This document shows positions 15,090-56,503 of a stretch of DNA of 64,000 nucleotides, one piece after another; within the stretch, counting starts at the first letter, position 1; every line of letters starts with the position of its first letter. The notes beneath the pieces are model-generated. The model saw only the letters and a program-made list of their open reading frames with translations, was not told the origin of the DNA and searched no databases. The translations under genes were made by a program, and so were the position numbers. The stretch comes from an uncultured Clostridia bacterium (GTDB lineage Bacteria; Bacillota; Clostridia; Christensenellales; DTU072): the NCBI GenBank assembly GCA_944372665.1, contig CALVZV010000002.1:1-64000 (forward strand), in the 5' to 3' direction.

Positions 15090-15866
15090 ATGTGTTTGAT
15101 GAAAAAAATATTGCGGCTGATACTGCCTTTTCCGCGTTTTGAAAGCGCCGAACGCGTGCTGTTCGTGGCGCCGCACCCCGACGATATAGAGGTTTCTTCC
15201 GGGCAGACCGCCGCAAAACTTGCCGCGGCAGGCAAAACAGTGCGTTTCGTCATTGCGCTGGACGGCAGATACGGCTCCGAATCCGCTGACACGGATCCGG
15301 AGGAACTCATAAAAACGCGCGAAGCGGAACAGCGGGCGTCCGCAGCGAAGCTGGGCGTGGAGGACGTGGTGTTTCTTGGTTTTTCGGACGGCGGATTTTA
15401 CGATACGGAAGAGCTTTTCGCTGCGCTCTACCGCGAGATACTGGCATTTAAGCCAGATCTGGTGTTTTGTCCCGATCCGTCGCTTAAAACCGAATGCCAT
15501 ATTGACCACGTCAACGTGGGCAACGCCGTAAAGCGGGCGTTTTTATTCGCTTCCAATGCTCCCATGGCTAAAAAAGCGGGATACGCCGCCGCGTCGCCCG
15601 CGCTTTTGGCAATGTATTATACCGACGAACCCGATTATTACTTTCCCACGGGCAGAAAGTGGCGCAGGCTCCAGAAAGAGGCGCTGGCATGCCACGGCTC
15701 GCAGATGAGTTACACGCCCGACAGAAAAGGGAGCGGAGATCTTATAAACCTGTATATCGATTTCAGAACGATCAGATTCGGATTGAGATCGTTAAGACCG
15801 GGCGGCGCCGAGGGCTTCAGGTGTCTCACGCCCACACACGCGCATTGCTGCGCGGAAAAGATTTAG
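15090..15866 (+). CDS. PIG-L family zinc-dependent deacetylase
   Basis: Predicted N-deacetylase of the PIG-L/LmbE fold (relatives act on GlcNAc-containing small molecules such as GlcNAc-malate or diacetylchitobiose), 258 residues. The zinc motif reads 'APHPDDIE' near residue 30 with the catalytic Asp; the third zinc ligand is in 'ECHIDHVNVG' near residue 138, the family's HxDH. 'IALDGRYGSESAD' and 'EAEQRASAAKLGVEDVVFLG' are also typical. AGGGGAG lies 5 bases before the chosen ATG. It sits directly before an unknown small protein. Substrate is not determinable; bacillithiol synthesis (BshB) is one possibility, but no bshA or bshC is present here. Confidence 0.85.
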   Translation: MCLMKKILRLILPFPRFESAERVLFVAPHPDDIEVSSGQTAAKLAAAGKTVRFVIALDGRYGSESADTDPEELIKTREAEQRASAAKLGVEDVVFLGFSDGGFYDTEELFAALYREILAFKPDLVFCPDPSLKTECHIDHVNVGNAVKRAFLFASNAPMAKKAGYAAASPALLAMYYTDEPDYYFPTGRKWRRLQKEALACHGSQMSYTPDRKGSGDLINLYIDFRTIRFGLRSLRPGGAEGFRCLTPTHAHCCAEKI

Positions 15867-17793: not shown

Positions 17794-19791
17794 ATGAAAT
17801 ATTTCGGCACAGACGGTATTCGCGGTAAAAGCGCGATGTTCACGTCGGATTTTCTGGAAAAAACGGCGCAGGCGGTCAAGGCTTTTTACGGCAGGATCAG
17901 CGTCGTTGTCGCACGCGATACGCGGACGAGCGGAAAGAAAATAGTTTCGGTTTTGTCAAAATACCTCGCATCGGCGGGGATAAACGTGCTGGACGCCGGA
18001 ATGCTGCCCACGCCGGCGCTGGCTTTTCTGACAAAAGCCAAAAAAGCAGAGATAGGCATAATGGTGTCGGCTTCGCATAATCCTCCCGAGTATAACGGAC
18101 TTAAATTTTTCTCGGGAAAAGGCGCCAAGATCTCGACGGCTGAGGAAGAAGCTCTCGAAAAACTCATCGATACATCGGTTTTTCAGGCAGAGGAGGGCGG
18201 TTCGTACAGGGAATATGCCGACGGGCTGGAAGACTACCTCGGATTCGTGCGCCGTTCGTTTTCACCCGATCTTAAAGGACTGAAGGTCGTTCTGGACGGC
18301 GCGTCCGGGGCGGCAGGGAGCGCCGCGGTGGCGCTGTTCCGCGGTCTGGGGGCATCGGTCACGGCGCTCAACGCGGAAGGCGACGGCTCAAGGATCAACG
18401 TCGGCACTGGCGCGGCGCACCCCGAATACATTATCGGGGAATCGCTGAATTCGGACGCGGACATAGCTTTTTCCTACGACGGAGACGGCGACAGGGTGAT
18501 AGCCGCCGTCAAAGGCGCGTGCATTGACGGCGACAATATGATGTATGCGGCGGCAAAATATTTTATGGAGAAAGGCAGACTGAGCCCTCCCGTGCTTGTC
18601 GGAACGGTGATGACGAATCTGGGCGCGGAAAAGGCACTGAACGCGCTTGGCATAAAACTTTTAAGGACGCCCGTGGGCGACAAATACGTGTCTATGCTGA
18701 TGGAAGAGGGCGGCTATCCGATAGGCGGAGAAAGATCGGGACACATAATCTTTTCGGATTTCGCAGCTACCGGCGACGGCATACTGACATCGCTCATAAT
18801 CGCCGCCGTGGCAAAGGAAAAAAACGTCTCGGAGTATGCCGATTACGGCGAATATCCCACGGCGTCGGACGAGATCAAGACGGACGAACGCGGCAAACGC
18901 GTGTTCGAATCCAGCCCCGAAATAGCGGCGTTTAAAGCCTTTCTGGAATCGGAAGGCAACGGCAGGATAATAGCGCGTCCCTCCGGCACCGAGCCCGTGA
19001 TAAGGCTGACCGCGGAGGATCCGGACATGTCCGTCGCCAGAAGATCAGTCAGACGTTTAAAAGCGTACGCGTCCAAAATCATCGAACTTGAGTCTGAAGT
19101 AAAGGCTACCGAAAACGAATATAAGGTGACCCGAAATTTCAAAACAAGCGATAAGAAACTGAAAGAAGCGGAGGAGGCGGGCGCCGTGGTGCTGTCGCCC
19201 GAAACGACGTTCATAGCCGATTCGGTCAAGCTGGGCAAAGGCGCTACGGTCTATCCCATGAACGTATTGACGGGCAATACCGCGATAGGCGAAAACAGCG
19301 TCATTTATCCGTTCTGCGAGCTTAACGACACCGTCGTCGGAGAGGGGTGCGAGGTGCGTTCGACTTTTGCGACCAAGGCTGTGATAGGCGCACGTACGTC
19401 GGTAGGACCCTTCGCGTGCCTGAGGGCGGGAGCGCATATAGGCGCCGGCTGCAGGATAGGCGACTTCGTGGAGGTCAAAAACTCCGTGTTGGGCGACGGC
19501 GTAAAAGCCGCGCATCTGACCTATATCGGCGACGCGGACGTCGGCGGGGGCACCAACGTCGGGTGCGGCACGGTATTTGCCAATTACGACGGCGTCGGGA
19601 AAAGACGTTCCAGGGTGGGGGAAGGCGTTTTTATAGGCTGCAATTCCAATTTGATAGCGCCCGTGGACGTGGGCGACGGCGCGTATATAGCCGGCGGCAG
19701 CACGGTCACGGACGACGTGCCCGAGGACGCGCTGTGTATCGCCAGAGCGCGTCAGTGCGTCAAAAAGGATTGGCGCAGAAAGCCCGAATAA
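17794..19791 (+). CDS. Fused phosphoglucosamine mutase (GlmM) and glucosamine-1-phosphate N-acetyltransferase (GlmU C-terminal half)
   Basis: A 665-residue two-enzyme fusion for UDP-GlcNAc synthesis. Residues 1 to about 425 are GlmM: 'KYFGTDGIRG' start, phosphoserine loop 'VSASHNPPEYNG' near 92, metal loop YDGDGDRV near 228, sugar loop 'GGERSGHIIF' near 308 and phosphate loop 'RPSGTEPVIRLTAE' near 395. Residues about 465-665 are a left-handed beta-helix matching the GlmU acetyltransferase: 'IGDFVEVKNS', 'AAHLTYIGDADVG' with the catalytic His, 'GCGTVFANYDG' and 'FIGCNSNLIAPV'. A charged linker (about 440-462) joins them. The GlmU uridylyltransferase domain is absent. The protein would convert GlcN-6-P to GlcNAc-1-P; the last, UTP-dependent step must come from another protein. 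CGGAGG precedes the ATG. Confidence 0.92.
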   Translation: MKYFGTDGIRGKSAMFTSDFLEKTAQAVKAFYGRISVVVARDTRTSGKKIVSVLSKYLASAGINVLDAGMLPTPALAFLTKAKKAEIGIMVSASHNPPEYNGLKFFSGKGAKISTAEEEALEKLIDTSVFQAEEGGSYREYADGLEDYLGFVRRSFSPDLKGLKVVLDGASGAAGSAAVALFRGLGASVTALNAEGDGSRINVGTGAAHPEYIIGESLNSDADIAFSYDGDGDRVIAAVKGACIDGDNMMYAAAKYFMEKGRLSPPVLVGTVMTNLGAEKALNALGIKLLRTPVGDKYVSMLMEEGGYPIGGERSGHIIFSDFAATGDGILTSLIIAAVAKEKNVSEYADYGEYPTASDEIKTDERGKRVFESSPEIAAFKAFLESEGNGRIIARPSGTEPVIRLTAEDPDMSVARRSVRRLKAYASKIIELESEVKATENEYKVTRNFKTSDKKLKEAEEAGAVVLSPETTFIADSVKLGKGATVYPMNVLTGNTAIGENSVIYPFCELNDTVVGEGCEVRSTFATKAVIGARTSVGPFACLRAGAHIGAGCRIGDFVEVKNSVLGDGVKAAHLTYIGDADVGGGTNVGCGTVFANYDGVGKRRSRVGEGVFIGCNSNLIAPVDVGDGAYIAGGSTVTDDVPEDALCIARARQCVKKDWRRKPE

Positions 19792-19930: not shown

Positions 19931-22900
19931 ATGGCACGTTACAGGATCCCCGGAAAACATTACACGAAAAGGAGCATTTTAGGCATAACTTTACTGGTTG
20001 TAGCCGTTGCCGCGCTGGTAGCCGCGTGCGTAGCCGCCGCGGTGTTGCCGACGATGGTGGAAGGTCACGAGGGATCCGATCTTGCTGCGGGCACTTATGT
20101 CCGTCCCACCGTGCAGGCCATAGTAGTCGAAAACGAAGGCAGGATCAGCATCAACGCCGACCTGACCCAGGTGTTTGCGACCGTCCAGTACAGCGACGGG
20201 ACCTCGGAACAGGTCGCTCTCTCCGAAATGATAGTCGAAGGTCTGGATCTGAGTCAGGTTCAGAAGCTGGACAACGTGATTTTGGATTACGGCGGTTTCA
20301 AGCAGACGGTAAGCTACGAAGTCGTGCCGACGACTCTGACGGTAACGTATCTTGCGTCTTACGGCGGCAGGATCGAAGGCGACAGCGAACAGTCGGTTGT
20401 CGCGGGCGGCGACGCCACCACGGTGAACGCCGTGCCTGCGGAAGGATATAAGTTCCTCAGGTGGAGCGACGGATATCCTTACGCGTCCAGGCGTGACAAG
20501 GAGATCAGCCGCACCATGACCATCACCGCCGTGTTCACCAAACAGACCTTTACCGTCATTTTCTATTATCCCGACGGCACGACCGCCAGGGAAGAAACGG
20601 TGTTTTACGGCTCTCAGCCCACGAATGTCCCCAGAGCCGACGAAAGCAATATGCAGCTTTACGGATACAAATTCACAGGCTGGGACACCAACTACACAAA
20701 CGTGACGGAGGACCTCAACATCAGACCGATCATGGTCAAGGACGCCGTCGATCTGGAGGTCGAATTCACCTCGGACGGCAGCGGTCCGCTGGGCTACATA
20801 GAGGATCTGGAACCGTATTATCCCAAAGGACAGCAGTCGGTCCTGCGCGTCAGGGCTAACGACAGCAGGATATTTACGGGCTGGGAAATCCTCAATTTCG
20901 ACGGCGAGTGGGTCGAGGTGGCTCCCGAAGGAGTCAGCCAGCAGATAGAGCTTGCCGACGGAAGTTTCGTTATGTTCACCTCTGCCAGGACGGGGACAAG
21001 CGAGGAGTACACGCTGTCGTTTACATTGCCCTCCGATTCGTATTCGACCACGGCGGGCATCATCTATTCCATGAAGATGCGCGCGGACTTTGTCTACAAG
21101 GAGAGCGTTATTTCCTTTGCCAGCAACGGCGCGCCCGTTTCGAATCTTCCTTCGGTGATACTTCAGTACGGCGATCCCATCGGCGGAGTATTCGACGTCG
21201 AGGATCTGTCGGTGATAGCTCTCGGAGGATTTACTTTCGGCGGCTGGTACTACGAGACCGAGCCCGACGGCACGCCCGTCGTGCTGACCAACGACGCGAT
21301 AATAGAACGAGACGTCACTTTGACTGCGCACTGGATCAGGAACGTATATACCGTCGTGTTCAAACTCGACGGGGTGGAAAACTTCAACGACTTTACGACT
21401 TTGCCGGGATATGACGCGGAAGCGGGCGGAATAGTGCTCACGGCGGAATATCAGACCGCCGTGGCGGGCGCGCTGACGGGAGAATTCCCCGCAGTGACGC
21501 CCGAAAAGACCGACTATGTGTTCGACGGCTGGTTCGTGTCGGATATGGGCGAAGCCACTTCCGTAGCGGTGACGCGTGAATATACGGTATCCGGAAACGT
21601 GGACGTCATACCCGTTTTCAGCGTCATAACCAAGGACTTTTCCGTGTCGCTGAAGGGCGCGGGCGCCGTGTACGTGATAAGTGACGCCGGGATGGCGACG
21701 TCACCCGTTCAGGGCGTTGTCAAGGTCCCCGTCAACGAGGATTTCAGATACGCCGTCGTGCCCTCCGCGGGCTATATCGTAACTTCCGTACGGCTTAACG
21801 GCGAAGTGGTTGCCGAAGGCGACGTTCAGCTTTCCGACAACAGATACGTCGGCACCATCGAAGTCAATACGATAGTGACGGCTTCTCAGCTTAAACTGGA
21901 AGTCGATTTCGAACTGGTTTCGTATTCGGTGAACGTGGCTAACGGCTCCACGGGTCTGGCTGGAACCGTCGAGTATTACGTTTCGGGCACGTCGGGAGAC
22001 GGCAGCTGGACGACGAACGCTTCTTCGGCGTTTACCGTGTCCGTACCTTCGGGCGGCAGTCTGGTGATGCGTATAACCGCGCCCGAAGGCAATTTCGTTT
22101 CTTCGCTGAGCGTCAACGCTCTTGCCGAAGCGCTGCCCGCCGACGCGGAGACTTACACTTTCACCGTTGCCGACGTGATAGCCAATACCTCGGTGGAAAT
22201 AGGCTACCGCGGACTTTATTATACCGTGACGCTGCCCGAGAGCGTGGAAAACGCCGCCATAGAAGGGCCGACGGAAACGTCTTTCCAGAAAGGCACCGAC
22301 CCCGGCAACTATATCGTTACGGCGGATACGGGATATTATATTTCGGCGATCAGGGTCAACGGCACGGTTCTCGATCCGTACGTTTATTTCTCCTCCCAGA
22401 TCAGCGGCGGTTGCCACATAGTCGGATTCCGCGTCAACGACGAGGAAGTTTCCGAATATTTCGGTTCGGGCGATTACCGTATCACCAGAGTCGAATTTTA
22501 TATAGACTCCATTTCCAGGAACACCGAGATAGAAATAGAAACCGCGCAGCTTTATTACCGCATCAATACCAGCTATTACGGCGGAGAAGGCAGCGTTACC
22601 GAGAGTTTCGTAGTCGGATACGGCGACATAGCCGAAGTGGTCGCAAAGACCGACAACACCTATTCCGTGGCTTCGGTGGAGGTCAACGGCGAGGTGGAAA
22701 ACTATCCGCCCAGACTCAACAGCGTCACTTATACCACCCCCGAAGTCAAACGCGATTATTACATAGTGTTCAGCTTCATCAGGGCGCTGCAGACCGTCAC
22801 GTTCACCACCAACGATACCGACATGAAGCTCAGCTATAACGGTTCTGACGTGTTCGTCGGCGCCATGACGTCTGTGGCGGACATTCCGCGCGGGTCCTCG

Positions 22901-25900
22901 CCCGTTTTCGTGGTCACCGCGCCCGAGGACGCCACACTCGATTCGATCACCGTCTATACCGCCGCCGGGACTTCGTATCCCGAGGTGATAGGCTACGGCG
23001 TGACTTCGCATACGATGACGTTCGACGCCATAGAATCCGATTATACCGTCGAAATAGCGTTCAGCGAGGTTTCGTATTACGTTACCGCCGTCGTTGAGGA
23101 CGGCAACAATTCTGCGGTCACTTTGTTCGGCAGCACCGTCATGGGCGACGAGCTGCTGCAGGAAACCGCTCCTTACCGTGCAGCATATAACGGCAGCGCC
23201 ACGATCAACATCAATATAGTTGCGACCAGGACGCTGACCATAGACGACGTTTCGGTCGTGAACGTCTCCGGCGGCGACTATTATTATGTGGCGTCGTCCA
23301 CCGGTATTTCAGGCGCCGATTACGGCGCGTACACGCTGGAGAACGTCTCCGGCGGCGTCATCACGGTCAGCGTGTACGGTATACGTTCCGACGTCAGGGT
23401 ATTCCTCAACTTCCGTGACAATAACGCCTCGGACGGCACGGTCAAATTCGGGTCGATGGGTTCCGGCGCGTTAAGCGCTTCCGGCGGCGGCGCCGAACTC
23501 ACAAGCGGCAGCGCGCTGGCAGTCGGCACCGAAATCCGATTCGAAGCAGAAGCTTATGCCGGCGCGGTGCTGGAAGGCTATTTGGTCAACGGACAGTTCA
23601 CGCAGGCGTCCGAAACTTTGGACTACACGGTCGGCGAAGGTCTTAACAGCGTTTATGCGCTGTTCGGAGAAGTGCGCCGTTATATCAACGTCAATCTGTC
23701 TTCCGGCTCCGGCACCGTCAATTCCGACGCGGTCTACGTATCCGACGGAGAGGGCTTCAGCGTCCGCTTTATCCCTGCCGCAGGATATTCGTTGGGTAGT
23801 TTCTATGTGTCTTACGGCTCTACTTCCAGACGCGATCCCGGCACCACCGAAATAGAAACTTATCCCGGCGGCGTGGTCCAGTGGAACTTCCCCGCCGGCA
23901 CGGTATACGACGGCGACGTCACCGTACACGCCGCGTTCACGACAAACAACTATACGCTTTCCATATCGTATTCTTCCGGCGGCACCGTCGGCGGCAGCGA
24001 ACAGGGCAGCAACTACGTTTATTCCAGCGCCGTGTCGATGAATATAGAAGCCAACCCCGGCTACTATATCAGCTCCGTCACCGTCGGCGGACTTTCGTAT
24101 GCTCCGTCGCAGCTGTCCGGCGCGCAGCTTGACAGCTCTACCAACTGCTTTGTTTCGGGTACGCTCAATTTTAAGATCACCGGCGACACGCTGGTCAGGA
24201 TAGAGTTCTCGCCCAACGCTTACACCCTGATAATTTCGGATACGCTGGGCGGCGTGACCTACGTAATGACCGACGCCGAGAACGGCTCGGGCTACGAGAA
24301 CACCGACTCCGTCACGTTCGGTGCGGAGGAGAATCTGCGCCTCAGACTTAACGCGGAAGAAGGATATCACATCGCCGAAATCATCGTGAACGGCGTTAGT
24401 ATCTGGGATTGGCAGATAAGCGGCGTTGACGAGAACGAGATGACCGAAATATATTACGACCTCGGCAGACGCAGCAGCTCCCTGAGCGTCCGCGTCGTAT
24501 ACGAGATCAACAAATACTACATCGACGTCAACGGGTTCAACTCCAGCCCCAACTTCGCTTCGCGAGACACCGATCCCTCAACTTACGGTACTGTTAGCGT
24601 GACGGGCTACGTTTCCGACGCCGACGGCATCTATACCGGCATATCTCACGGCAGCGATATAAGAGTGGTCGTCACTCCCAGAAGCACGCGCGGATATTAC
24701 GTCGAAAGCGTGGTCATATATTACGTCGAACCGGGCGGCAAAGAGGGTATAATAACGCTTTCGCGCGAACAGATGCCCGTAACCGGCGGCGCCTATCTGA
24801 TAGAGAATGTTTCATTCGACATAACCTCCCTTAGCGTAGAATTCAAGCGATATCAGTACAGTTTCGACATTTCCGAATCCGATATCAATATCAACCTCGA
24901 ATACCAGCCTTCCGGACTGTATGCGTTCAACGGCGCGGTGACGGTGACTTTCTATAATCCTTATGACCGCAACGCCGAAGTAATCATCGAAAACGGTATG
25001 TACGAGTACGGTCTGAACTATACTCTGACCGCCGATCCCGGAGCGGGATACGAAAGGACGGGTCTCATAATCAACGGCGAGGATCGCATGTCCTCGGTAC
25101 GCAACAATGCGGTCTCCGGCGCGGTGACCTCAAACGTAGTGGCAAAAGCCGCGTTCGAGATCAAGCGTCATACGGTGGCTTTTGCCCTTCAGACGACCGG
25201 CGGAGCCATGGGCAGCATAATGCTGGAAGGCGATATGGATGACGGAAGCGTCTTCGTTTGGGCTCCCGAATATGCATTAAGCGGAGTCTATGTTCTCAAT
25301 TCGGGTATTATCTGGGCTGAGTACGACGGCAAGGAGACCGCCTTGACAGTGACCTACGGCACATCGCTCAGGTTTATCGCCACTCCCGATTTCGACAGCA
25401 GCGGAAGCATTATCGAATCGTTTTCGATATTCACCGATTCGGCTTTGCAGCGGGTCACCGTCGAGGACGCCACCCTCGCCAAGAGCGAAACGCATGCGAT
25501 CGCGGGCGAGACCTATGCCGTGGCGTCGTTTGCGGTAAAGTCGTATTACTTTACGGTGATTTCCGCAGAAGGAGGCAACCCGTCGGTGTCTTCCGCAACG
25601 GTGAAGTGGGGAGAAAACTTCAAATTCGGATACGAGCTGTATACGGGTTATGAAGTGGACGGCTATCACGAGGACGACGTATTCATCGTATCCGTGGACG
25701 GCACAGTGCTGCCGACCAACGAACTGAACGCGATACGCGCGGAGTTGTTCGCGGAAGGCGAAAAGCGCACCTATACTTTCGAAAACGTCAGGGCGGACTA
25801 TGTAATAACCATTTCTCCCGCGCGCAGAAAATACAGCGCGACCTTTACCGGCGGATACGCCCAAAGGCATTCCGACACCGTTTTTGCTGTCGCCGAGCTT

Positions 25901-28900
25901 TCCATAAGCGGCGGCAGATCGTTCAGTTCCCTCGATCTGGGCACCGGCTTGCCTCCCGAGGCATGGAAACCTTCCGGCGGCATCGGAGCCGATTACGACG
26001 GCATGCGCTTCAACGACAGGGTCACCGTAAAGCTTACTCCCGCCGAGGGATACAATCTCGTTGCCGCCACGGTAATAATGGGAGAAGCCGTATATACCGT
26101 AGAGGACTTCGTTTACGGCAACGGTTATTACACGCTGACGATAGACGCGGTCAAGGCTAATTTCGAAGTCAACGTGAAATACGAACTCAGGACCTACGAA
26201 GTGGCGTTCGCGTCGGCTTCCGGCGGTACCGTGGACGGCATAGAGTTTGTTGAAGGCGGCGGCAATTGGGTATCGGGCGAGAAGATAGGGCACCACTCCG
26301 TGATACGTATAGGGTTTACCGCGTATACGGGATATTATCTGTCCTCGCTCGCCATCAACGGTATATCCTACACGATAGGCTATAATAAGGGTGCGTATCA
26401 ATATAACGTGATCCCGACCAAGACCAACGACGGCATCTATGTTTATACGGCTACGTTCACCGTAAACGACGCTTTCGTCAATGCCATGCCGGTCATTTCC
26501 ATAGAGGCAGGTTTTTCGCCGCAGGCGTTTGCGCTGAGCCTGGTGATCAACCGCAAAGAGTTTGCCAACGGTTCCGGGGACGCTTCGATCAGGGTCTCTT
26601 CGGAATACGGTTCGGTCGAATACAATACAAAGGGCGGCACGCCTATACTCCATTCGTTCACGACGGGCTACGAGATCAAATCGCTGACGCTTTACAACAA
26701 CGCCAACTGGAGCGTGGACGTGTCCGGCGCCAGCAGAATTGGCACTCTGACGGGCGTGGCATACGGCGCAATGACGGGTAAAAACCAGTACGAAAAGCGT
26801 CCCGACGCGGATTACAACAATCTTGATCTGACGATGTATCTGGATATTTCGTTGGATTTCGGCGGCAAAGCGCTGTTCTCGTACCTGGATATTCACGATC
26901 CCGACCTGTCCACGCTGTATATGGTGTATGAGACGGAGCTTAGCAAATACAGCGTCAATTTCGTCGACAACAGTCTGGCATACATGGTGGCGGACGGCAC
27001 GGAATACAAGTTTACGTCCGAGGGCTCCGCTAACGGCTCATATTTCGTTAACGGCGTCAGCGTCGCTACCTATTCGATATCCTTCAGCGACGATTCGACT
27101 TCGCTTACGGGACACACTCACGGCTCCTTAGCGACTTTCAATGTACAGCTTTCGGACGCGGTCAATTACGTGTTCGAAGGTTTCCAGGAGTACCGTAACG
27201 GTACTTGGTCGTACGTCAGAAACGGAATAAACGGCATAACGGTCGCGGCAAACGGTCTGGAAATGAGATATACCATGACCTCCACGCGCACGTTCCGCGC
27301 GGTATTCTATCATATTTATACCGTGACGGTGGAAATTATGCCGAATTACAAATATATTTCAGGCAATTTCTCGTCCGCGAACCCGGACAGCATGGTGTAT
27401 CAGATCTACGCTTCGATAACGGCTTTGGCAAACTATGACGCTCAGGGCAATCCCGACAGGATACTGCCCGACATCGCAGCCAACAAGGACGGCGTGATAA
27501 CCGAAACGCTAGAGAACGGCGGCGCCAGGGGCGGAGCCGCGGTCTTCCGCATCAGAAGCGGAGCGGTGTTCACTCCGTTCGGAGCGGATACCGTTTCAAG
27601 CGTCAACCGCGCCAACATAGCTTTCTATACGACGCGTCTTTTCAACACGCTGCCGATACAGACCCTGAACGTCGTTTCGGATACTACGCTTTATGCGGGA
27701 GATCCGTCCATGGCGGTATATCTGAGCTTCCTGTCAGAAACCTACGGCGCTTCCAACTCCAACGCGGGCGGTAGCCTGAACGTGTCGCTCAGCTCCAACT
27801 CTTACCGCGTGTCCGCAGGCAGTGCGGTTACAATAGCGATAACTCCAAATTCGGGATACCGTATAGAGTCAGTAGGGTACCTGTTGGATACCGGAACGCC
27901 TGATTCCAACGGCAACAGGCGTTTTACCACGACGTATAAAACCTTTACTCCCGGCACGGGAGAGGAGAACTTCGCCTTGAGTGCTGCGGAAGCAAACGGC
28001 GTCGTCAGACTGAACGTGACCGTCACCGAAAACATGATCATTAAGATCAGGTACGTCAAGCAGGTGACAGTCGTGAGGACGGTGGCGCTGTTCGAAAACA
28101 AGACCGTCAAACCCGGATTCGCTACCGCGAGCGTATTCGAGGACAACACCTGGGTAGACAACACAAGGGTATTCGATTACGGCACGCAGGTCAACTTTAA
28201 AGTCGTGGAAGGTCTTGCCAACGCCGCCAACGTAAACGTGGGGTACGATACGCGTTACCGTTTTATGGGATATATGATAAACGGCGTTATGCAGTACAAC
28301 GACCTTACGCGCGGCTATCCAGGCTCAGCCGAAAGCAGTTTCGTACTGGACGATCTGGGCGGCAAACTCAACGGCGCCACGATAACCAACGTAAGCACTT
28401 CCGGTGGCACGGAATTCAGACTGGAAGTCGTGGCGGTTTACCAACCGGTATATACGATAGTCGCGGAGAATATCTACCGATATCAGGACGACAGCGGCGA
28501 ATGGCGTTATGAACCCGCCGGCGAAATAGTCGCTACCACTACGCTTTACAATTCGGAGCGTCCGCAGTACTATTCCAGTTCCACGCGCGTGGAGAGCTAT
28601 CTCGGCGGCGATCCCACCAAACAGACCATCCAGGTCATGGAACAGCTGAACGGGATCACCGGTGCGGCATATAACACGTGGAGCGACAATACGATCACGC
28701 TTGAGTGGTCGGGGACCGGCAAGGAGGAAGGCTTCGAGCTGGTGGGCTGGCAGTATTGGTACTACCGCGGCGAGCAGTACGGCGGATGGAACTGGGGGCT
28801 TATTCCCGACGCGACGGGCAGCACGTACAACGCTGCCAAGAACAATTATACCTTCCCGGTTTCCGCGCTTTACGACGAATCGTATCTGAGGATGGTCAGC

Positions 28901-31900
28901 ACGGACAACTCCATCCTGGGCGACGACGAGAATTATCTGGCGTTCACGTGTTCGGATTCCGGCGACTATGTCTACGGAGATATAGGCTCGTATTGCATAG
29001 TGATACGCCCGCTGTTCCAGCAAAAGAACGTATTGGAACTGATTCCATCCGTGGCAATGCAGGAACCCGGCAACTATATCGACGGAGAGGGCGACCAAAG
29101 CCCGAGAATAGAGGGTACGGCATATCCTTCGGCGTCGTTTAACGCCGGTACGATGCAGACCGCGCTGCCCAACACGTTCGACGATTACATTTTCGACGGC
29201 TGGTGGGTATCCGCGGACGGCGAACGCGTCATGCTGGAAAAAACGGGAACATGGCTGTCGATACAGGTGGACGGTTCCGAAAGAGAATTGCAATACAAAT
29301 ATAATCCGGACGACGACTCGCTGAACGTGATAATGAACGATTCGTACACCATTTACCCGAGATATACGCGTAAATATACGATGAACATAGCCGTCAGCAG
29401 CCTTTCGGGGACTGCGGCGAGTCTGATTGAGGCGCTGCCCAAAATGCAGATAGCGTTTATCGAGGGCGAGAAAGAAACCGAAATTACGGATTTCGACGGT
29501 AAACAGCTACTAAATTACACGATGCCCGTCGGTTCCAAACTTGTGATCACGCTGCCGCTGGGCAAGGATAAGGACAAGGACGACTGGACGGACGAACGCG
29601 GCAGAATTGACTTGTTTAACCCAATATACGACCGCGTCGCCGGTATCAGCATTTTGGACAACAACGGAAACGAACTGTTCGGCCAAAACTCGGATTACGA
29701 CGATGCTGCCGACAGCGAATTTGCATCCGATTATTTCAGCCAACGCCTTTCCGCTACAGCCTTGAGCAGCGATGATTTTGCAGATTATATTAATAAGATC
29801 AATGCAATCAAGCTTGTAATAACTGCCAATACGTCCAAGCGCATCAATATTAATTTCCTCAGCTACGGCGAACTGATCATTCACAACCTGTATTGCAGTA
29901 AAACCGGTTCGGGTATAAAACTTCCCGCGGATTTTGCCATAGCTCTGGGTGCCGACGAAGCGGCGGCGAGCGACTACTGGATTTACGACGGCGACGAAAT
30001 GGACAGCGACGGCAAGGTTAACGGTGAAATCAGTATAATCAATATACCGATTTCACCCGATATCCAATACGACAAACAGTCCTCCAGCGATTTCTGGGTC
30101 AGGATCAAACAAAGCGAAGACGTTAAGCTGACGCTGGACACCTCGTCCTATATATCAAAACTCAATTTCAATCTTAACGGCAATGATACCGCGACGGAGT
30201 ATTTCGTGAAAATCCAGCACGTGTTTTTCTATGACGATCCGGATTCTTACAATAATACTTACAGCGGTTATTTGTACGAGAGGAATCCGGAAACGGGCGT
30301 GACTGGGTTCAATAAATATGATGCAATACCGTACTCCGAAGGCGTCATCAAAGAAGGTTATCCGTTTAAGGGCGGCATCGGTACTAAAGGTGACCCGTTC
30401 CTGATCTCGACCGCGTTCCAGATGGACAGCCTTAACAGCATTCATCGCGGTATGGAGGGCAACCTGTCGCAGGTGTACTTTATGCTGAACAACGATATCG
30501 ATCTGTCGAGCGACTTCAGCGGTTTGATAGGAGCAGATTTCAAGGTCGGGGAGCAGACTTATTCCAACGGATTTATCGGGCATCTCGACGGCAACGGGAA
30601 AACTTTGAAAAACGTCAGAGTTACTTACGGAGCAAACTACGTCGGCATTTTCAGCAAGCTGGGCGAAGGAAGCAGCGTTACCAATCTGACAATCAACGGA
30701 ATTGTGACGGGAGCGTCTTATGTCGGGATGCTGGCGGGTGAACTGTACGGAGGCACAATAAACCAAGTACGGGTTACCGCGCTTCCCAATACAAACGTGT
30801 CGACCGTACAGGGCGAAAACTACGTCGGCGGCATCGTGGGATATATGCGCGGAACCACCAGCATCAACGCTGTGGTCGAGGACTGCTCTGTCAGCAATGC
30901 CATGGTGGTATCCATCAGAGGAGGAACATTGGATGACAAATCCAATTCGTATACCGGCGGCGCAGGCGGCATTGCAGGAGCGGTCGCCGCAAACGCGTAT
31001 ATTTCCGGCAGCGTTAACGAGGCGGCAGACGGCAGAGTTACCGGTACTTCCGAGGTCACGAACGTTACGGTTCTTTCGCCCTTGCTGTCAGGGCAGGTCG
31101 CTGGTTCCCTGGAAGATTATGAACAGGAGCAATCGACCGATTATAACAAAGGAATCAGCGGAGTTATTGCTTACAGCGTCAATTACGACTTCACCGATAA
31201 TTTGTTGGGAGTGGGCGGGATAGTCGGCTCGGTGGGCCAAAACAGATACGTTGAAAACGTATATTACGTCGTAAATTCCGACACGAAGATCTATTCCATT
31301 CAGGCGTCGGGAACTTACTCCGGTTACAAGGCGCCCGATAAAGGTTCCGTTTATAAGCTCGGCATCGGTATTATTACGGCAAGAAACATCGGCAAGATAT
31401 CTTCCGCTCACGTAATAACCGCAAACGATACTCCGCGTACCGTTACGCTTACGGGCGCGTTTATCGGAGGGATAGCGGGCGTGAACTTCGGAATAATCGA
31501 GGCGTCGAGCGTGACCAACGTCAAACTGTACAGCGACCGTTCCGTAGGTTTGATGACGTCGGTAGGAGGTATTGCCGGAGTTAACTGGGAAACAGGGAAA
31601 ATCGTTAATTCGTATTTCGAATTGTCCTCGTCCGAACTCGTCACGGGCGTCAGAGAGCGGTCGGCAATAGAGCTTACCACCGGCGGCAACACCATCTACG
31701 ACCCCATAGCCAACTATTCCGGCAGCGTCGGTCTCAACGGCGGACTGAACAATATTTATGAAGTGATCACCGCAGCCGACTCTGCCAACGTATATATCGG
31801 TCTGGCGGCGGGGTACAACAGCGGTTCGATAACCTCCGATAAAAATGTGAGCTATTCGGGCAATCTGTTGCTTAACCGCAGATCGAGTGACACCGCTACG

Positions 31901-32452
31901 GGTCAGACTTACGTGGGAGGTCTGGTAGGTTACAACTATTTTTCGGGTACATGGTCGGGCATCGATTCGGTAACCACGGATATAACGGTATTCCATTATA
32001 TATATGTCGACGCCGGTACGCGCGACGCGATTGAACCGCCGCAGAAGCTTTACGTCGGCAGAATGTTCGGCGGCGGAACAAGATTCACAGGCGAAGGCTC
32101 GGGTATTGCTCTTAACGGTTCGGTAAACGTAACTTATCTCGGCGCCGGACAGATTTACAACGGCGTCAGCAACGACCACATATTCAGCGGTCACGAGTAC
32201 GGTTCCGGAGCGCAGGAGGGCGCCGCCAGGGTCTACTGTTCGGAAGGTACGGGCTTGGTTCAGGTGAATCAATTGATGTCCTCTTCCCCCAACGGCGAAT
32301 TTGGGATAAATAGAATAAAAGGTGACGGCAAATGGATAACCGATTTTATCACGGTACAAGGCGGCGGCTGGGGCGGAAACGAATGGATAACCTCCGCAAC
32401 CAACTATAACGGCTACGTGAGATATATAGCCGTTTCAAAGGTAAATTTTTGA
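19931..32452 (+). CDS. Giant cell-surface repeat protein (InlB-type repeats and GLUG-type beta-helix)
   Basis: A single 12.5 kb frame, 4,173 residues. Residues about 15-42 are a basic-then-hydrophobic segment that acts as a signal anchor or uncleaved signal; I see no LPxTG motif, SLH domain or C-terminal helix. Residues about 55-135 resemble a bacterial Ig-like domain ('VQYSDGTSEQVALSEM'). From about 135 to 3,150 comes a long array of divergent Listeria-Bacteroides/InlB-type repeats of roughly 70-90 residues, recognisable by 'GGxV', 'PAxGYxxxSVxVNG' and 'FDGWxVS' motifs. After a bridging region, residues about 3,475 to the end hold GLUG-like repeats ('NYVGIFSKLGEGSSVTNLTI', 'YVGGIVGYMRG'), a right-handed beta-helix type associated with adhesins. 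Function is probably adhesion or a cell-surface fibre; this is inferred from repeat types. Confidence 0.9.
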   Translation: MARYRIPGKHYTKRSILGITLLVVAVAALVAACVAAAVLPTMVEGHEGSDLAAGTYVRPTVQAIVVENEGRISINADLTQVFATVQYSDGTSEQVALSEMIVEGLDLSQVQKLDNVILDYGGFKQTVSYEVVPTTLTVTYLASYGGRIEGDSEQSVVAGGDATTVNAVPAEGYKFLRWSDGYPYASRRDKEISRTMTITAVFTKQTFTVIFYYPDGTTAREETVFYGSQPTNVPRADESNMQLYGYKFTGWDTNYTNVTEDLNIRPIMVKDAVDLEVEFTSDGSGPLGYIEDLEPYYPKGQQSVLRVRANDSRIFTGWEILNFDGEWVEVAPEGVSQQIELADGSFVMFTSARTGTSEEYTLSFTLPSDSYSTTAGIIYSMKMRADFVYKESVISFASNGAPVSNLPSVILQYGDPIGGVFDVEDLSVIALGGFTFGGWYYETEPDGTPVVLTNDAIIERDVTLTAHWIRNVYTVVFKLDGVENFNDFTTLPGYDAEAGGIVLTAEYQTAVAGALTGEFPAVTPEKTDYVFDGWFVSDMGEATSVAVTREYTVSGNVDVIPVFSVITKDFSVSLKGAGAVYVISDAGMATSPVQGVVKVPVNEDFRYAVVPSAGYIVTSVRLNGEVVAEGDVQLSDNRYVGTIEVNTIVTASQLKLEVDFELVSYSVNVANGSTGLAGTVEYYVSGTSGDGSWTTNASSAFTVSVPSGGSLVMRITAPEGNFVSSLSVNALAEALPADAETYTFTVADVIANTSVEIGYRGLYYTVTLPESVENAAIEGPTETSFQKGTDPGNYIVTADTGYYISAIRVNGTVLDPYVYFSSQISGGCHIVGFRVNDEEVSEYFGSGDYRITRVEFYIDSISRNTEIEIETAQLYYRINTSYYGGEGSVTESFVVGYGDIAEVVAKTDNTYSVASVEVNGEVENYPPRLNSVTYTTPEVKRDYYIVFSFIRALQTVTFTTNDTDMKLSYNGSDVFVGAMTSVADIPRGSSPVFVVTAPEDATLDSITVYTAAGTSYPEVIGYGVTSHTMTFDAIESDYTVEIAFSEVSYYVTAVVEDGNNSAVTLFGSTVMGDELLQETAPYRAAYNGSATININIVATRTLTIDDVSVVNVSGGDYYYVASSTGISGADYGAYTLENVSGGVITVSVYGIRSDVRVFLNFRDNNASDGTVKFGSMGSGALSASGGGAELTSGSALAVGTEIRFEAEAYAGAVLEGYLVNGQFTQASETLDYTVGEGLNSVYALFGEVRRYINVNLSSGSGTVNSDAVYVSDGEGFSVRFIPAAGYSLGSFYVSYGSTSRRDPGTTEIETYPGGVVQWNFPAGTVYDGDVTVHAAFTTNNYTLSISYSSGGTVGGSEQGSNYVYSSAVSMNIEANPGYYISSVTVGGLSYAPSQLSGAQLDSSTNCFVSGTLNFKITGDTLVRIEFSPNAYTLIISDTLGGVTYVMTDAENGSGYENTDSVTFGAEENLRLRLNAEEGYHIAEIIVNGVSIWDWQISGVDENEMTEIYYDLGRRSSSLSVRVVYEINKYYIDVNGFNSSPNFASRDTDPSTYGTVSVTGYVSDADGIYTGISHGSDIRVVVTPRSTRGYYVESVVIYYVEPGGKEGIITLSREQMPVTGGAYLIENVSFDITSLSVEFKRYQYSFDISESDININLEYQPSGLYAFNGAVTVTFYNPYDRNAEVIIENGMYEYGLNYTLTADPGAGYERTGLIINGEDRMSSVRNNAVSGAVTSNVVAKAAFEIKRHTVAFALQTTGGAMGSIMLEGDMDDGSVFVWAPEYALSGVYVLNSGIIWAEYDGKETALTVTYGTSLRFIATPDFDSSGSIIESFSIFTDSALQRVTVEDATLAKSETHAIAGETYAVASFAVKSYYFTVISAEGGNPSVSSATVKWGENFKFGYELYTGYEVDGYHEDDVFIVSVDGTVLPTNELNAIRAELFAEGEKRTYTFENVRADYVITISPARRKYSATFTGGYAQRHSDTVFAVAELSISGGRSFSSLDLGTGLPPEAWKPSGGIGADYDGMRFNDRVTVKLTPAEGYNLVAATVIMGEAVYTVEDFVYGNGYYTLTIDAVKANFEVNVKYELRTYEVAFASASGGTVDGIEFVEGGGNWVSGEKIGHHSVIRIGFTAYTGYYLSSLAINGISYTIGYNKGAYQYNVIPTKTNDGIYVYTATFTVNDAFVNAMPVISIEAGFSPQAFALSLVINRKEFANGSGDASIRVSSEYGSVEYNTKGGTPILHSFTTGYEIKSLTLYNNANWSVDVSGASRIGTLTGVAYGAMTGKNQYEKRPDADYNNLDLTMYLDISLDFGGKALFSYLDIHDPDLSTLYMVYETELSKYSVNFVDNSLAYMVADGTEYKFTSEGSANGSYFVNGVSVATYSISFSDDSTSLTGHTHGSLATFNVQLSDAVNYVFEGFQEYRNGTWSYVRNGINGITVAANGLEMRYTMTSTRTFRAVFYHIYTVTVEIMPNYKYISGNFSSANPDSMVYQIYASITALANYDAQGNPDRILPDIAANKDGVITETLENGGARGGAAVFRIRSGAVFTPFGADTVSSVNRANIAFYTTRLFNTLPIQTLNVVSDTTLYAGDPSMAVYLSFLSETYGASNSNAGGSLNVSLSSNSYRVSAGSAVTIAITPNSGYRIESVGYLLDTGTPDSNGNRRFTTTYKTFTPGTGEENFALSAAEANGVVRLNVTVTENMIIKIRYVKQVTVVRTVALFENKTVKPGFATASVFEDNTWVDNTRVFDYGTQVNFKVVEGLANAANVNVGYDTRYRFMGYMINGVMQYNDLTRGYPGSAESSFVLDDLGGKLNGATITNVSTSGGTEFRLEVVAVYQPVYTIVAENIYRYQDDSGEWRYEPAGEIVATTTLYNSERPQYYSSSTRVESYLGGDPTKQTIQVMEQLNGITGAAYNTWSDNTITLEWSGTGKEEGFELVGWQYWYYRGEQYGGWNWGLIPDATGSTYNAAKNNYTFPVSALYDESYLRMVSTDNSILGDDENYLAFTCSDSGDYVYGDIGSYCIVIRPLFQQKNVLELIPSVAMQEPGNYIDGEGDQSPRIEGTAYPSASFNAGTMQTALPNTFDDYIFDGWWVSADGERVMLEKTGTWLSIQVDGSERELQYKYNPDDDSLNVIMNDSYTIYPRYTRKYTMNIAVSSLSGTAASLIEALPKMQIAFIEGEKETEITDFDGKQLLNYTMPVGSKLVITLPLGKDKDKDDWTDERGRIDLFNPIYDRVAGISILDNNGNELFGQNSDYDDAADSEFASDYFSQRLSATALSSDDFADYINKINAIKLVITANTSKRININFLSYGELIIHNLYCSKTGSGIKLPADFAIALGADEAAASDYWIYDGDEMDSDGKVNGEISIINIPISPDIQYDKQSSSDFWVRIKQSEDVKLTLDTSSYISKLNFNLNGNDTATEYFVKIQHVFFYDDPDSYNNTYSGYLYERNPETGVTGFNKYDAIPYSEGVIKEGYPFKGGIGTKGDPFLISTAFQMDSLNSIHRGMEGNLSQVYFMLNNDIDLSSDFSGLIGADFKVGEQTYSNGFIGHLDGNGKTLKNVRVTYGANYVGIFSKLGEGSSVTNLTINGIVTGASYVGMLAGELYGGTINQVRVTALPNTNVSTVQGENYVGGIVGYMRGTTSINAVVEDCSVSNAMVVSIRGGTLDDKSNSYTGGAGGIAGAVAANAYISGSVNEAADGRVTGTSEVTNVTVLSPLLSGQVAGSLEDYEQEQSTDYNKGISGVIAYSVNYDFTDNLLGVGGIVGSVGQNRYVENVYYVVNSDTKIYSIQASGTYSGYKAPDKGSVYKLGIGIITARNIGKISSAHVITANDTPRTVTLTGAFIGGIAGVNFGIIEASSVTNVKLYSDRSVGLMTSVGGIAGVNWETGKIVNSYFELSSSELVTGVRERSAIELTTGGNTIYDPIANYSGSVGLNGGLNNIYEVITAADSANVYIGLAAGYNSGSITSDKNVSYSGNLLLNRRSSDTATGQTYVGGLVGYNYFSGTWSGIDSVTTDITVFHYIYVDAGTRDAIEPPQKLYVGRMFGGGTRFTGEGSGIALNGSVNVTYLGAGQIYNGVSNDHIFSGHEYGSGAQEGAARVYCSEGTGLVQVNQLMSSSPNGEFGINRIKGDGKWITDFITVQGGGWGGNEWITSATNYNGYVRYIAVSKVNF
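20330..29380 (+). repeat. Protein-level array of divergent InlB B-type repeats
   Basis: Dozens of degenerate 70-90 residue units within the giant protein. Each has a first strand with Tyr/Val-x-Val, a Gly-Gly turn, a 'GYxVxxVxVNG' core and a final 'xxDxxIxVxF' strand. Units differ strongly at DNA level, so this is an old, diverged array rather than recent tandem duplication. Confidence 0.75.
30350..32450 (+). repeat. GLUG-type beta-helix repeat region
   Basis: Starts with 'GGIGTKGDPFLISTAFQMDS', the usual entry to GLUG-containing beta-helices, and continues with repeating (Y/F)VGG(I/L)(A/V)G cores separated by 20-60 residues to the C-terminus. Confidence 0.75.
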
Positions 32453-53421: not shown

Positions 53422-53463
53422 ATATCTAAGAATAAATTGCAAGTCTTTGCAACGGAGTGTCGG

Positions 53464-54486
53464 ATGAAAAAGATTTTAGTGACGGGCGGAGCCGGATTTA
53501 TCGGCGGGAATTTTGTTCATTATTTGCTTTCACGTTATCCGGAAGACAAAGTGATCTGCGTAGACAGTCTGACTTATGCCGGGAATCTTGATACGCTCTC
53601 GGATGTGACGGACAACGCTAATTTCGGATTTTATAAGATCGACATCACCGATGCCGTTTCGATAGATAAACTTTTTGCCGAAGTGTTACCTGATATAGTC
53701 GTAAATTTTGCAGCCGAAAGCCATGTAGACAGGTCCATCGAAGATCCCGGCATATTTTTAAGAACAAATATTTTGGGTGTGCAGGTGCTTATGGATGCTT
53801 GCCGTAAATATAACGTATCGAGGTATCATCAGGTATCCACGGACGAAGTATACGGCGATTTACCTTTGGATAAGCCTGAAATGATGTTTACGGAACAGAC
53901 GCCTTTACATACTTCAAGCCCGTATTCTGCGTCTAAAGCATCTGCGGATTTATTGGTTATGGCTTATTATCGAACTTATAAACTGCCTGTAACCATTTCG
54001 CGTTGCTCCAATAACTACGGACCCTATCATTTCCCCGAAAAGCTGATTCCATTGATGATAATTAACGCTTTGTATGATAAGCCGTTGCCAGTTTACGGCT
54101 CCGGAGCCAACGTACGCGACTGGTTGTACGTGGAAGATCACTGTGCCGCAATAGATTTGATAATCAGGAAGGGTAAAGCGGGCGAAGTTTATAACGTAGG
54201 CGGACATAACGAAAAGAAGAATATCGATATCGTTAAAACCATCGTAAATAAACTTGGTAAAAGCGAAAGACTTATTACTTTTGTCAAGGATCGTGCGGGG
54301 CACGATCTGCGTTACGCCATCGATCCATCAAAAATACATGCCGAGTTGGGTTGGCTGCCCCGTACCGATTTCGATGAGGGGATCGAAAAAACGATCGAGT
54401 GGTATATTAACAATAAGCCATGGTGGGAAAAAATAATCAACGGAGAATATCGAAATTATTACGAGAGAATGTATGAAAACAGATAA
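53464..54486 (+). CDS. rfbB: dTDP-glucose 4,6-dehydratase
   Basis: Converts dTDP-glucose to dTDP-4-keto-6-deoxyglucose, 340 residues. The ATG at 53464 is chosen because ACGGAGTG lies upstream and it starts 'MKKILVTGGAGFIGGNFVHY' with the NAD motif. The catalytic set is complete: 'QVSTDEVYGDL' near residue 122 (Thr-Asp-Glu) and 'YSASKASADLL' near 155 (Tyr/Lys). 'RCSNNYGPYHFPEKLIPLMI' near 182 and 'RDWLYVEDHC' near 218 are also conserved. It opens the plus operon and overlaps the next gene by 14 bases. The other three genes continue the same nucleotide-sugar pathway. Confidence 0.95.
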   Translation: MKKILVTGGAGFIGGNFVHYLLSRYPEDKVICVDSLTYAGNLDTLSDVTDNANFGFYKIDITDAVSIDKLFAEVLPDIVVNFAAESHVDRSIEDPGIFLRTNILGVQVLMDACRKYNVSRYHQVSTDEVYGDLPLDKPEMMFTEQTPLHTSSPYSASKASADLLVMAYYRTYKLPVTISRCSNNYGPYHFPEKLIPLMIINALYDKPLPVYGSGANVRDWLYVEDHCAAIDLIIRKGKAGEVYNVGGHNEKKNIDIVKTIVNKLGKSERLITFVKDRAGHDLRYAIDPSKIHAELGWLPRTDFDEGIEKTIEWYINNKPWWEKIINGEYRNYYERMYENR

Positions 54487-55600
54487 TATAACACCTTTGA
54501 AAAATCCCGTTTTCGTTACCAGATCGTCGATGCCGTCTTTTAAAGAATATTGCGACGAGATAAAGGGGATTTGGGAAAGCCATCATTTAACCAATATGGG
54601 TCCAAAGCATAATCGCCTTGTACAGAAACTTTCGGAATATTTAAACATTCCCTCGGTATCGCTATATGCCAACGGACATTTGGCACTGGAAAACATGTTG
54701 GAAGCATACAAGGTAAGCGGTGAAGTGATAACTACGCCGTTTACTTTTGTTTCCACAACAAACGCTTTGGTGCGCAAAGGCTTAAAGCCTGTATTTTGCG
54801 ATATAAAAAAGGACGATTATACAATAGACCCCTCTAAAATCGAAGCGCTAATAACCGAAAAAACGAGTGCGATTTTGGCTGTTCACGTTTATGGCCACGT
54901 CTGTGACGACCAAGCAATTTCGGATATTGCTCAAAAGTATGATTTAAAGGTGTTTTATGATGCCGCACATGCTTTCGGCGTATTGAAAAAAGGTGTTAGC
55001 GTGGCGGCTTTGGGAGACTGTTCCATGTTCAGTTTTCACGCCACAAAAGTATTTAATACGATTGAAGGCGGGGCATTATGCTGCCGTGAATCTTCCATGT
55101 TGGGCGCTTTCGACGCATTTAAAAACTTTGGTCTTGACGCCGATAAAGAATATTCCGAAATGGGCGGCAACGCCAAGATGAGTGAATTCCATGCGGCGAT
55201 GGGCTTGTGTAATCTGCGTCATCTTGATGAAGAAATAGAAAAAAGGAAAAAAGTCTTTGAACGCTATGCAGACGGGTTGGGTAATACAGAAGGAATTAAG
55301 CTGTGCTTTCCCGGGGAGGGAATAACTCACAACTATGCTTACATGCCGGTGCTTTTTACAGGCGCGTTTAACAGGGATAAAGTATTTGATTCGTTGCAAA
55401 AATTAAATATATTCGCCAGAAAATATTTTTATCCGCTGACCAGCGATACGGAATGGTATAAAATCAATGTTCCGGAAAGGAAACACACGCCTATAGCCGC
55501 TTTTGTGGCGGATAATATTTTGTGTTTGCCTATGTACTCCGAATTATCATCGGATGAAATAGATATTATCATAAACGCGGTATTGAGATCCGCTGAATAG
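54473..55600 (+). CDS. VioA-like dTDP-4-amino-4,6-dideoxyhexose aminotransferase (DegT/DnrJ family)
   Basis: PLP-dependent sugar aminotransferase, 375 residues. The opening 'IKGIWESHHLTNMGPKHNRL' and 'GEVITTPFTFVSTTNALVRK' match the VioA type, which aminates dTDP-4-keto-6-deoxyglucose at C4 to give dTDP-Qui4N. The PLP lysine is in 'MFSFHATKVFNTIEGGAL' near residue 185; 'FYDAAHAFGV' near 163 and 'NAKMSEFHAAMGL' near 228 are also family marks. It is located between rfbB and rfbA, giving the full route to a 4-amino sugar. The choice between C3 and C4 amination, and between gluco and galacto product, is inferred. Confidence 0.85.
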   Translation: MKTDNITPLKNPVFVTRSSMPSFKEYCDEIKGIWESHHLTNMGPKHNRLVQKLSEYLNIPSVSLYANGHLALENMLEAYKVSGEVITTPFTFVSTTNALVRKGLKPVFCDIKKDDYTIDPSKIEALITEKTSAILAVHVYGHVCDDQAISDIAQKYDLKVFYDAAHAFGVLKKGVSVAALGDCSMFSFHATKVFNTIEGGALCCRESSMLGAFDAFKNFGLDADKEYSEMGGNAKMSEFHAAMGLCNLRHLDEEIEKRKKVFERYADGLGNTEGIKLCFPGEGITHNYAYMPVLFTGAFNRDKVFDSLQKLNIFARKYFYPLTSDTEWYKINVPERKHTPIAAFVADNILCLPMYSELSSDEIDIIINAVLRSAE

Positions 55601-55609
55601 GGAGCTACA

Positions 55610-56503
55610 ATGAAAGGAATTATTCTTGCAGGTGGAAAGGGAACAAGATTGTATCCGATGACGATAGCTGTTTCCAAACAGTTATTGCCGGTTTACGATA
55701 AACCGATGATTTATTATCCGTTATCCATTTTATTGCTGGCGGGGATCAGAGAAATAGCCATTATATCAACGCCGGCAGATATAGACCACTACCGCAATCT
55801 GCTCGGCGACGGTAGCAATTTCGGGGCGCAGTTCACATATACCGTTCAGCCGCAGCCCAGGGGATTAGCGGAGGCGTTTATTCTTTGCGAAGATTTTATC
55901 GGACAAGACAGCGTTTGTCTTATCTTGGGAGACAATGTCTTCTACGGGCAGAATCTTTCCGTAATATTACGTAAAGCCGTAGGAATTCAGGAAGGAGCTA
56001 CGGTTTTCGGATATCCGGTTATGAATCCGTGTTCGTTCGGCGTTGTCGAATTCTCGCCTGACGGAAAAGTAATTTCGATTGAAGAAAAACCGGCTGTCCC
56101 GAAATCGAATTATGCCGTGCCCGGGCTTTATTTTTACGATAACAATGTAGTTAAAATAGCCAAGCAAGTCAAACCGTCCGCCCGCGGAGAAATTGAAATA
56201 ACTTCTATAAACGAGGAATATCTTAAACAGAATAAACTTAATGTTATTCTGATGGGAAGAGGGATCGCGTGGCTTGACACCGGATCTCCAGACGGATTAT
56301 TGAGCGCTGCGGAATTTGTTTCGACAATCCAGGCCAGACAAGGATATTACGTATGCTGTCCGGAGGAAATCGCTTGGCGAAACGGGTTTATCGATTCCGA
56401 AAAACTGTTGAGTATTGCCGAATCGATGAAAGGCACGGATTACGGCGCATATCTAATGTCAATAAATAAGGATGGCGACAATATCAGACCGAGGATAAAA
56501 TGA
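55610..56503 (+). CDS. rfbA: Glucose-1-phosphate thymidylyltransferase
   Basis: Forms dTDP-glucose from dTTP and glucose-1-phosphate, 297 residues as usual. The nucleotide-binding loop is 'GIILAGGKGTRLYPMTIAVS' at the N-terminus, 'KPMIYYPLSILLLAGIREI' near residue 25, 'LILGDNVFYGQNL' near 105 with the metal Asp, 'SIEEKPAVPKSNYAVPGLYF' near 160 and 'GRGIAWLDTGSPDGLLSA' near 218. AGGGAGCTACA precedes the ATG. Its stop overlaps the ATP-grasp start (ATGATG). No RfbC or RfbD homologue is in the window, so this locus does not make dTDP-rhamnose here. Confidence 0.96.
   Translation: MKGIILAGGKGTRLYPMTIAVSKQLLPVYDKPMIYYPLSILLLAGIREIAIISTPADIDHYRNLLGDGSNFGAQFTYTVQPQPRGLAEAFILCEDFIGQDSVCLILGDNVFYGQNLSVILRKAVGIQEGATVFGYPVMNPCSFGVVEFSPDGKVISIEEKPAVPKSNYAVPGLYFYDNNVVKIAKQVKPSARGEIEITSINEEYLKQNKLNVILMGRGIAWLDTGSPDGLLSAAEFVSTIQARQGYYVCCPEEIAWRNGFIDSEKLLSIAESMKGTDYGAYLMSINKDGDNIRPRIK

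Follow-up and report, generated by a model that had tools for sequence, protein, structure and literature searches.

A phosphoglucosamine mutase joined to the GlmU acetyltransferase half in a lineage with a decayed GlmU uridylyltransferase domain

A single open reading frame in the window, the whole 64,000-nucleotide stretch of DNA analyzed here, encodes a phosphoglucosamine mutase (GlmM) followed by the acetyltransferase half of GlmU, and the sequence strongly indicates that the fused protein is bifunctional. Bacteria are usually assumed to have one fixed set of enzymes for UDP-GlcNAc synthesis, namely GlmS, GlmM and a bifunctional GlmU. Our overall account, which we hold at a probability of about 85%, is that a bifunctional fusion was formed after the loss of the N-terminal uridylyltransferase half of GlmU (GlmU-N), and that the last step of the pathway is performed by another protein, for which a GalU-family protein is the best candidate. 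The GlmM part would convert GlcN-6-P to GlcN-1-P, and the GlmU-type left-handed beta-helix (LbH) would use acetyl-CoA to convert GlcN-1-P to GlcNAc-1-P, possibly with channelling between the two fused domains. The conversion of GlcNAc-1-P and UTP to UDP-GlcNAc would then be left to the other protein, in this genus putatively a diverged GalU-family uridylyltransferase. An initial annotation of the DNA had already proposed the route from GlcN-6-P to GlcNAc-1-P, and the presence of both families, complete, in one chain is in agreement with this predicted function.

The open reading frame starts with ATG and contains no internal stops. Its parts are the following.

17794..19791, + strand: complete fused gene, encoding 665 aa (GlmM, linker and the LbH acetyltransferase half of GlmU)
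17794..19059, + strand: residues 1-422, phosphoglucosamine mutase with its four PGM_PMM domains (TIGR01455, Pfam, Foldseek)
18067..18081, + strand: SASHN, residues 92-96, presumably the phosphoserine loop; invariant in 14/14 fused proteins
18478..18495, + strand: DGDGDR, residues 229-234, presumably the metal loop; invariant in 14/14 fused proteins
18724..18744, + strand: GGERSGH, residues 311-317, presumably the sugar loop; GGE, S and GH invariant in 14/14
18976..18993, + strand: RPSGTE, residues 395-400, presumably the phosphate loop; R and SGTE invariant in 14/14
19060..19173, + strand: residues 423-460, linker; modelled as helical, less conserved
19174..19782, + strand: residues 461-663, acetyltransferase half with the GlmU-type left-handed beta-helix (TIGR01173, solved GlmU chains)
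19423..19425, + strand: R544, taken as the GlmU acetyltransferase arginine; invariant in 14/14 fused proteins
19477..19479, + strand: K562, taken as the GlmU acetyltransferase lysine; invariant in 14/14 fused proteins
19513..19536, + strand: HLTYIGDA, residues 574-581; H574 (taken as the catalytic base), L575, Y577, G579, D580 and A581 invariant in 14/14
19582..19584, + strand: N597 of the ANYDG motif, to which we assign an acetyltransferase role; invariant in 14/14 fused proteins

The Pfam domains PF02878, PF02879, PF02880 and PF00408 (PGM_PMM I-IV) were found in order within residues 2-417, each above its cut-off, and Hexapep matched four stretches of the protein, the best at residues 606-639. 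The best-scoring NCBIfam family was GlmM (TIGR01455), which matched residues 4-422 with an E-value of 1.8e-112; the score of 376.3 bits is below the equivalog cut-off of 447.55. GlmU (TIGR01173) matched residues 451-663 (E 2.3e-74) at positions 236-449 of the 452 in the model. This match covers the acetyltransferase half only, and the N-terminal uridylyltransferase half is absent from the fused protein. The two matches confirm the initial annotation in that a complete GlmM and a complete GlmU acetyltransferase half are encoded in one frame. The predicted structure (mean pLDDT 78.3, pTM 0.63) displayed the mutase and the strands of the beta-helix, connected by a long helix, with only moderate confidence for linker and beta-helix and with pLDDT below 50 at linker residues 438-448. 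As GlmM is usually dimeric and the GlmU helix trimeric, the fused protein would be expected to form a larger assembly. A Foldseek search with the model returned GlmM structures as the top matches (best 6gyz, E 1.2e-39). Among solved GlmU chains, the best match to a 210-aa piece containing the helix was 9dqf (E 3.8e-57), which aligns with residues 463-662.

Directly downstream of the fused gene, at 19931-32452, lies the gene for a protein of 4173 aa with matches to divergent InlB B-repeat and List_Bact repeat domains, and a PIG-L gene (PF02585, GlcNAc de-N-acetylase family) is located at 15090-15866, a few genes upstream. A dTDP-sugar type cluster with an RmlA-like gene (named by eye) was observed at 53437-57702, and a collagen-like G-A-T repeat protein is encoded at 61089-62018.

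The fusion is conserved. It was found as a single continuous frame in all 12 other genomes of the same genus and in one genome of another genus (G018), and these 13 homologues are 45-80% identical to the window protein. Since the frame is the same in 14 genomes, a frame error at 19,100-19,200, which the initial annotation had named as a danger, is excluded, and a chimera is ruled out as well. Nothing was found in favour of a sequencing or assembly artefact, the probability of which we regard as negligible. Residues R544, K562, H574, Y577, N588, N597 and K603, which we take to have acetyltransferase roles, are invariant in 14/14 fused proteins. Of the motifs that had been pointed out at the outset, the mutase loop residues and six residues of HLTYIGDA stood as invariant in 14/14, but T576 and I578 vary among the 14 fused homologues. 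The dN/dS ratios in three close pairs were approximately 0.09-0.10 in the GlmM part and 0.03-0.17 in the helix, compared with 0.19-0.39 in the linker, indicating that both domains are under purifying selection in these pairs. A scan of named genomes included at least 2 fused loci, counted among the 80 loci listed. No GlmM-GlmU fusion was described among the entries listed in the literature searched, as judged from titles and the openings of abstracts.

The window is part of a genome assembly of 1.64 Mb (G000). Neither a second GlmM nor a full-length GlmU, which according to the initial annotation would make the fusion redundant, was found in its contigs; the one further PGM/PMM-type protein is not a GlmM. 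The same annotation had postulated a stand-alone GlmU-N elsewhere in the genome, an expectation that the searches did not support. No such half was found in G000 with the TIGR01173, PF12804 and PF00483 profiles. Searching the 12 remaining genus genomes with PF12804, PF00483 and, among the matches listed (to about E 4e-9), TIGR01173 revealed none either. In G000, the uridylyltransferase region of TIGR01173 was matched only weakly, by one GlgC-like protein (E 1.3e-10), by a pair of GalU-like proteins and by an RmlA-like protein, the last of these seen only in G000 among the 13 genomes. PF12804 added an IspDF-like protein in the genus, named from the sequence of 5 of the 12 matches. The matches to the three profiles were rejected as GlmU-N, being GalU-like, GlgC/GlgD-like, IspDF-like and RmlA-like as named by eye, and PF01704 (UDPGP) had no matches in G000-G012. 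Assembly gaps provide a very improbable explanation for the missing half: G000 is 92.4% complete and consists of 89 contigs, which would leave room for such a gene, but the searches revealed it in none of the 13 genus genomes, four of the others being 96-99% complete. Since no GlmU-N was found in the genus, another kind of protein must act as the uridylyltransferase. The sugar nucleotidyltransferases kept in the genus, again named by eye, are GalU-like (9/13 genomes), GlgC-like (13/13) and GlgD-like (12/13).

The loss of the uridylyltransferase half extends beyond the genus to much of this order of Clostridia. In a sample of 170 genomes, each at least 85% complete, with the GlmU state called at E 1e-40, 35 genomes contained the full protein, 97 the C half only, 2 the N half only and 36 none. 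A separate GlmU-N was detected at this threshold in only three genomes (G045, G058 and G109). In a set of 58 genomes, the window genome included, a full GlmU above the cut-off was present in 7. With a profile built from seven full N halves, we searched 24 stretches upstream of the helix, each longer than 20 aa. The best matches were in G185 (E 1.6e-31), G054 (1.1e-28), G044 (1.3e-17) and G039 (3.1e-8), followed by weak stubs. Long diverged domains precede the helix in G185, G054 and G044, short stubs with an 'LYxDTPLV'-like strand do so in many genomes, and nothing recognisable was left in G020 and G031. A shuffle test was applied to 18 of the 24 stretches (leaving out G185, G054, G044, G039, G182 and G042), and 14 of these beat at least 496 of 500 shuffles. 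The stretches of G116, G017, G020 and G031 failed against the shuffles and are not claimed as remnants. Thus, judged from these sequences, the uridylyltransferase domain appears to have eroded stepwise, with living intermediates.

Eight genomes of the same family (G013, G014, G021, G022, G023, G026, G027 and G032), four of them given as more than 90% complete, gave no match to GlmM or to the GlmU helix with the thresholds applied. These genomes would fit the view that UDP-GlcNAc is not synthesized de novo, and that GlcNAc-1-P serves some other purpose or UDP-GlcNAc is taken up. Import of a precursor has been reported in Rickettsia, according to the text consulted of PMC5615194. The strong conservation of both active sites in the fused proteins argues against this view, which we consider unlikely. 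To our knowledge there is no other common use of GlcNAc-1-P, and we count this against it too.

Gene order suggests how the fusion may have come about. All 12 non-fused genomes of the same family that gave matches to both genes have glmM directly 5' of the acetyltransferase gene; G039, whose GlmM is unclear, is omitted from this count. In G038, G041, G042, G059 and G116, glmM instead follows the acetyltransferase gene. The two matches are on separate contigs in all six GlmU-complete genomes that have both, and on different contigs in seven C-half-only genomes of the 58 (G040, G044, G046, G051, G052, G053 and G054). We propose that the uridylyltransferase domain in front of the helix decayed in an ancestor and was then lost, and that glmM and the leftover acetyltransferase gene would have become neighbours before they fused. 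A fusion in the reverse order, LbH-GlmM, was identified in three genomes.

L244 2243-4393; L409 1829-3901; L410 1686-3725: reverse-order LbH-GlmM fusions of G035, G088 and G152

The linkers of these three proteins look alike by eye. In a tree of the helix, constructed with a quick method, the 14 GlmM-LbH rows were placed inside a clade of 25 rows (SH-aLRT 99) together with 11 unfused rows, and the three LbH-GlmM rows formed a clade of four with G116 (SH-aLRT 98). The opposite domain order and the position in another clade of the helix tree imply that LbH-GlmM is a separate fusion, suggesting that fusion arose at least twice, as GlmM-LbH and as LbH-GlmM. The re-wired domain order described in the initial annotation represents one of at least two fusions, and the opposite order is also present. 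The decay of the GlmU uridylyltransferase is in this way visible through living intermediates, and the leftover half appears joined to GlmM in both orders.

For the UDP-GlcNAc-making step in the genus, we consider a diverged GalU-family protein to be the best candidate for replacing GlmU-N, at about even odds. The canonical GLGHA motif was kept in 19/19 GalU sequences from GlmU-complete genomes versus 3/86 from C-half-only genomes, and 77 of these 86 carry T, S or N as the second residue of the motif. The two copies in G000 read GTAYA and GTAKA. The three C-half-only genomes with a canonical GLGHA are G054, G039 and G082. In this count, 10 of 115 GalU sequences were kept apart as coming from genomes without an assigned GlmU state, the C-half-only label was extended to sixteen further genomes on the basis of the profile scans of the 58-genome set, and the GalU sequences of G069, G095, G121, G133, G144 and G155 as well as the second matches of G075, G093 and G166 were omitted. 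Both G000 copies scored below the cut-off of 326.8 bits of the GalU equivalog TIGR01099 (261.5 and 275.8 bits), as did other GalU-like proteins without GLGHA (G003, 255.8; G024, 309.9; G004, 255.2). GalU proteins with GLGHA scored above it (G034, 394.4; G062, 395.6; and the C-half-only G054, 390.3). A descent-corrected test of the motif against GlmU loss had 2 independent pairs on well-supported branches, neither of them supportive. The GlmU-complete label requires 4 changes on the GalU tree, or 3 with the unassigned rows omitted; the GLGHA association is clustered on this tree and represents few independent events.

Across the order, with thresholds of E 1e-25 for GalU and E 1e-10 for UDPGP and with counts uncorrected for descent, galU was found in 97/170 genomes and PF01704 UDPGP, a type which we take to include the eukaryotic UDP-GlcNAc pyrophosphorylase, in 20/170, and no genome had both. 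GalU was present in 73/97 C-half-only and 18/35 GlmU-complete genomes, and UDPGP in 9/97 and 0/35, respectively. Families f20 and f15 each include C-half-only genomes with galU as well as C-half-only genomes with UDPGP. This pattern would fit proteins that do the same job where GlmU-N is gone, and would also fit two interchangeable UDP-glucose enzymes. The genomes of family f27 (e.g. G059, L412) are 0.8-1.3 Mb in size and 98-100% complete; 9 of its 10 C-half-only members had no GlmU-N, GalU or UDPGP matches at the thresholds used, and the helix gene of G059 adjoins glmM.

Neither GalU nor UDPGP was found at these thresholds in 15/97 C-half-only genomes (9 from f27, 4 from f11, 1 from f9 and 1 from f29), and the order must therefore have some solution besides GalU. 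These genomes, the nine from f27 being 98-100% complete, are what would be expected if the uridylyltransferase were an unrecognised protein of another family, or a relaxed GlgC/GlgD, perhaps order-wide, with the divergence of GalU being unrelated. The canonical GalU kept in three C-half-only genomes, and the GlgC-like and GlgD-like proteins found by eye in 13/13 and 12/13 genomes of the genus, point the same way. However, PF00483 and PF12804 gave only GalU-, GlgC/GlgD- and IspDF-like proteins in the genus, plus the RmlA-like protein of G000, and this explanation comes without any positive candidate. We judge it a serious minority possibility, somewhat less likely than the GalU-family protein.

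The neighbours of the core galU-like gene are conserved, in the order GtrA-like, galU, clpC-like, S30AE hibernation factor, TIM barrel and PGI. Four of the 13 genus genomes (G002, G006, G010 and G011) had no galU-like match. In G006 and G010, a contig ends inside the adjoining clpC-like gene, so that the absence of galU is uninformative there; in G002 and G011, the clpC-like gene was unmatched too. G000, G001 and G003 each have one more galU-like copy. It belongs to a cluster which, as judged by eye, is of the polysaccharide export type and includes a UDP-galactopyranose-mutase-like gene.

L282 4214-8085; L284 5455-8476; L286 6024-12801: clusters with the second galU-like copy of G000, G001 and G003

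This cluster fits a role in UDP-glucose synthesis and counts against the GalU proposal. Taken over most of the order, it is conceivable, at slightly less than even odds, that the GlmU uridylyltransferase was lost and its essential step taken by a neofunctionalised GalU-family enzyme, or by a UDPGP-type enzyme in some lineages. This would amount to a pathway composed of a GlmM-acetyltransferase fusion and a GalU-type UDP-GlcNAc pyrophosphorylase, which we did not find described in the literature searched. For a large part of the order, the lost step is thereby left as an orphan reaction, and a concrete candidate gene is at hand.

In the portions of the literature consulted, GlmU is pursued as a drug target, and the fusion can be compared with several known systems. 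Like GlmM (TIGR01455), the fused protein has all four domains and the active-site loops, but it carries an extra C-terminal acetyltransferase domain and scores below the curated cut-off. With the bifunctional GlmU (TIGR01173) it shares the C-terminal left-handed beta-helix and the R, K, H and N acetyltransferase residues, whereas the entire N-terminal uridylyltransferase half is replaced by GlmM. Another type of helix protein is encoded next to glmM in other lineages.

L246 3386-4105; L245 4008-4784; L247 1988-2668; L099 4345-5046: other helix protein next to glmM

The G047 copy, to which the TIGR03992 scan was applied, matches the C half of this archaeal-type GlmU without the nucleotidyltransferase, at 144.4 bits and thus below the cut-off of 292.1; similar proteins occur in G043, G045 and L099. 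It resembles our system in having an acetyltransferase-type helix beside glmM, but it belongs to a different GlmU family and is unfused. The LbH-GlmM proteins of G035, G088 and G152 have the same two domains in one chain, with the domain order being opposite. The nearest precedent that we have seen is the GlmU of Rickettsia, which lacks the C-terminal acetyltransferase domain according to the text consulted of PMC5615194, where GlmM is unmentioned in the main text. As described there, that GlmU is also halved, but as the mirror image of ours: it has lost the C half and retains the N half.
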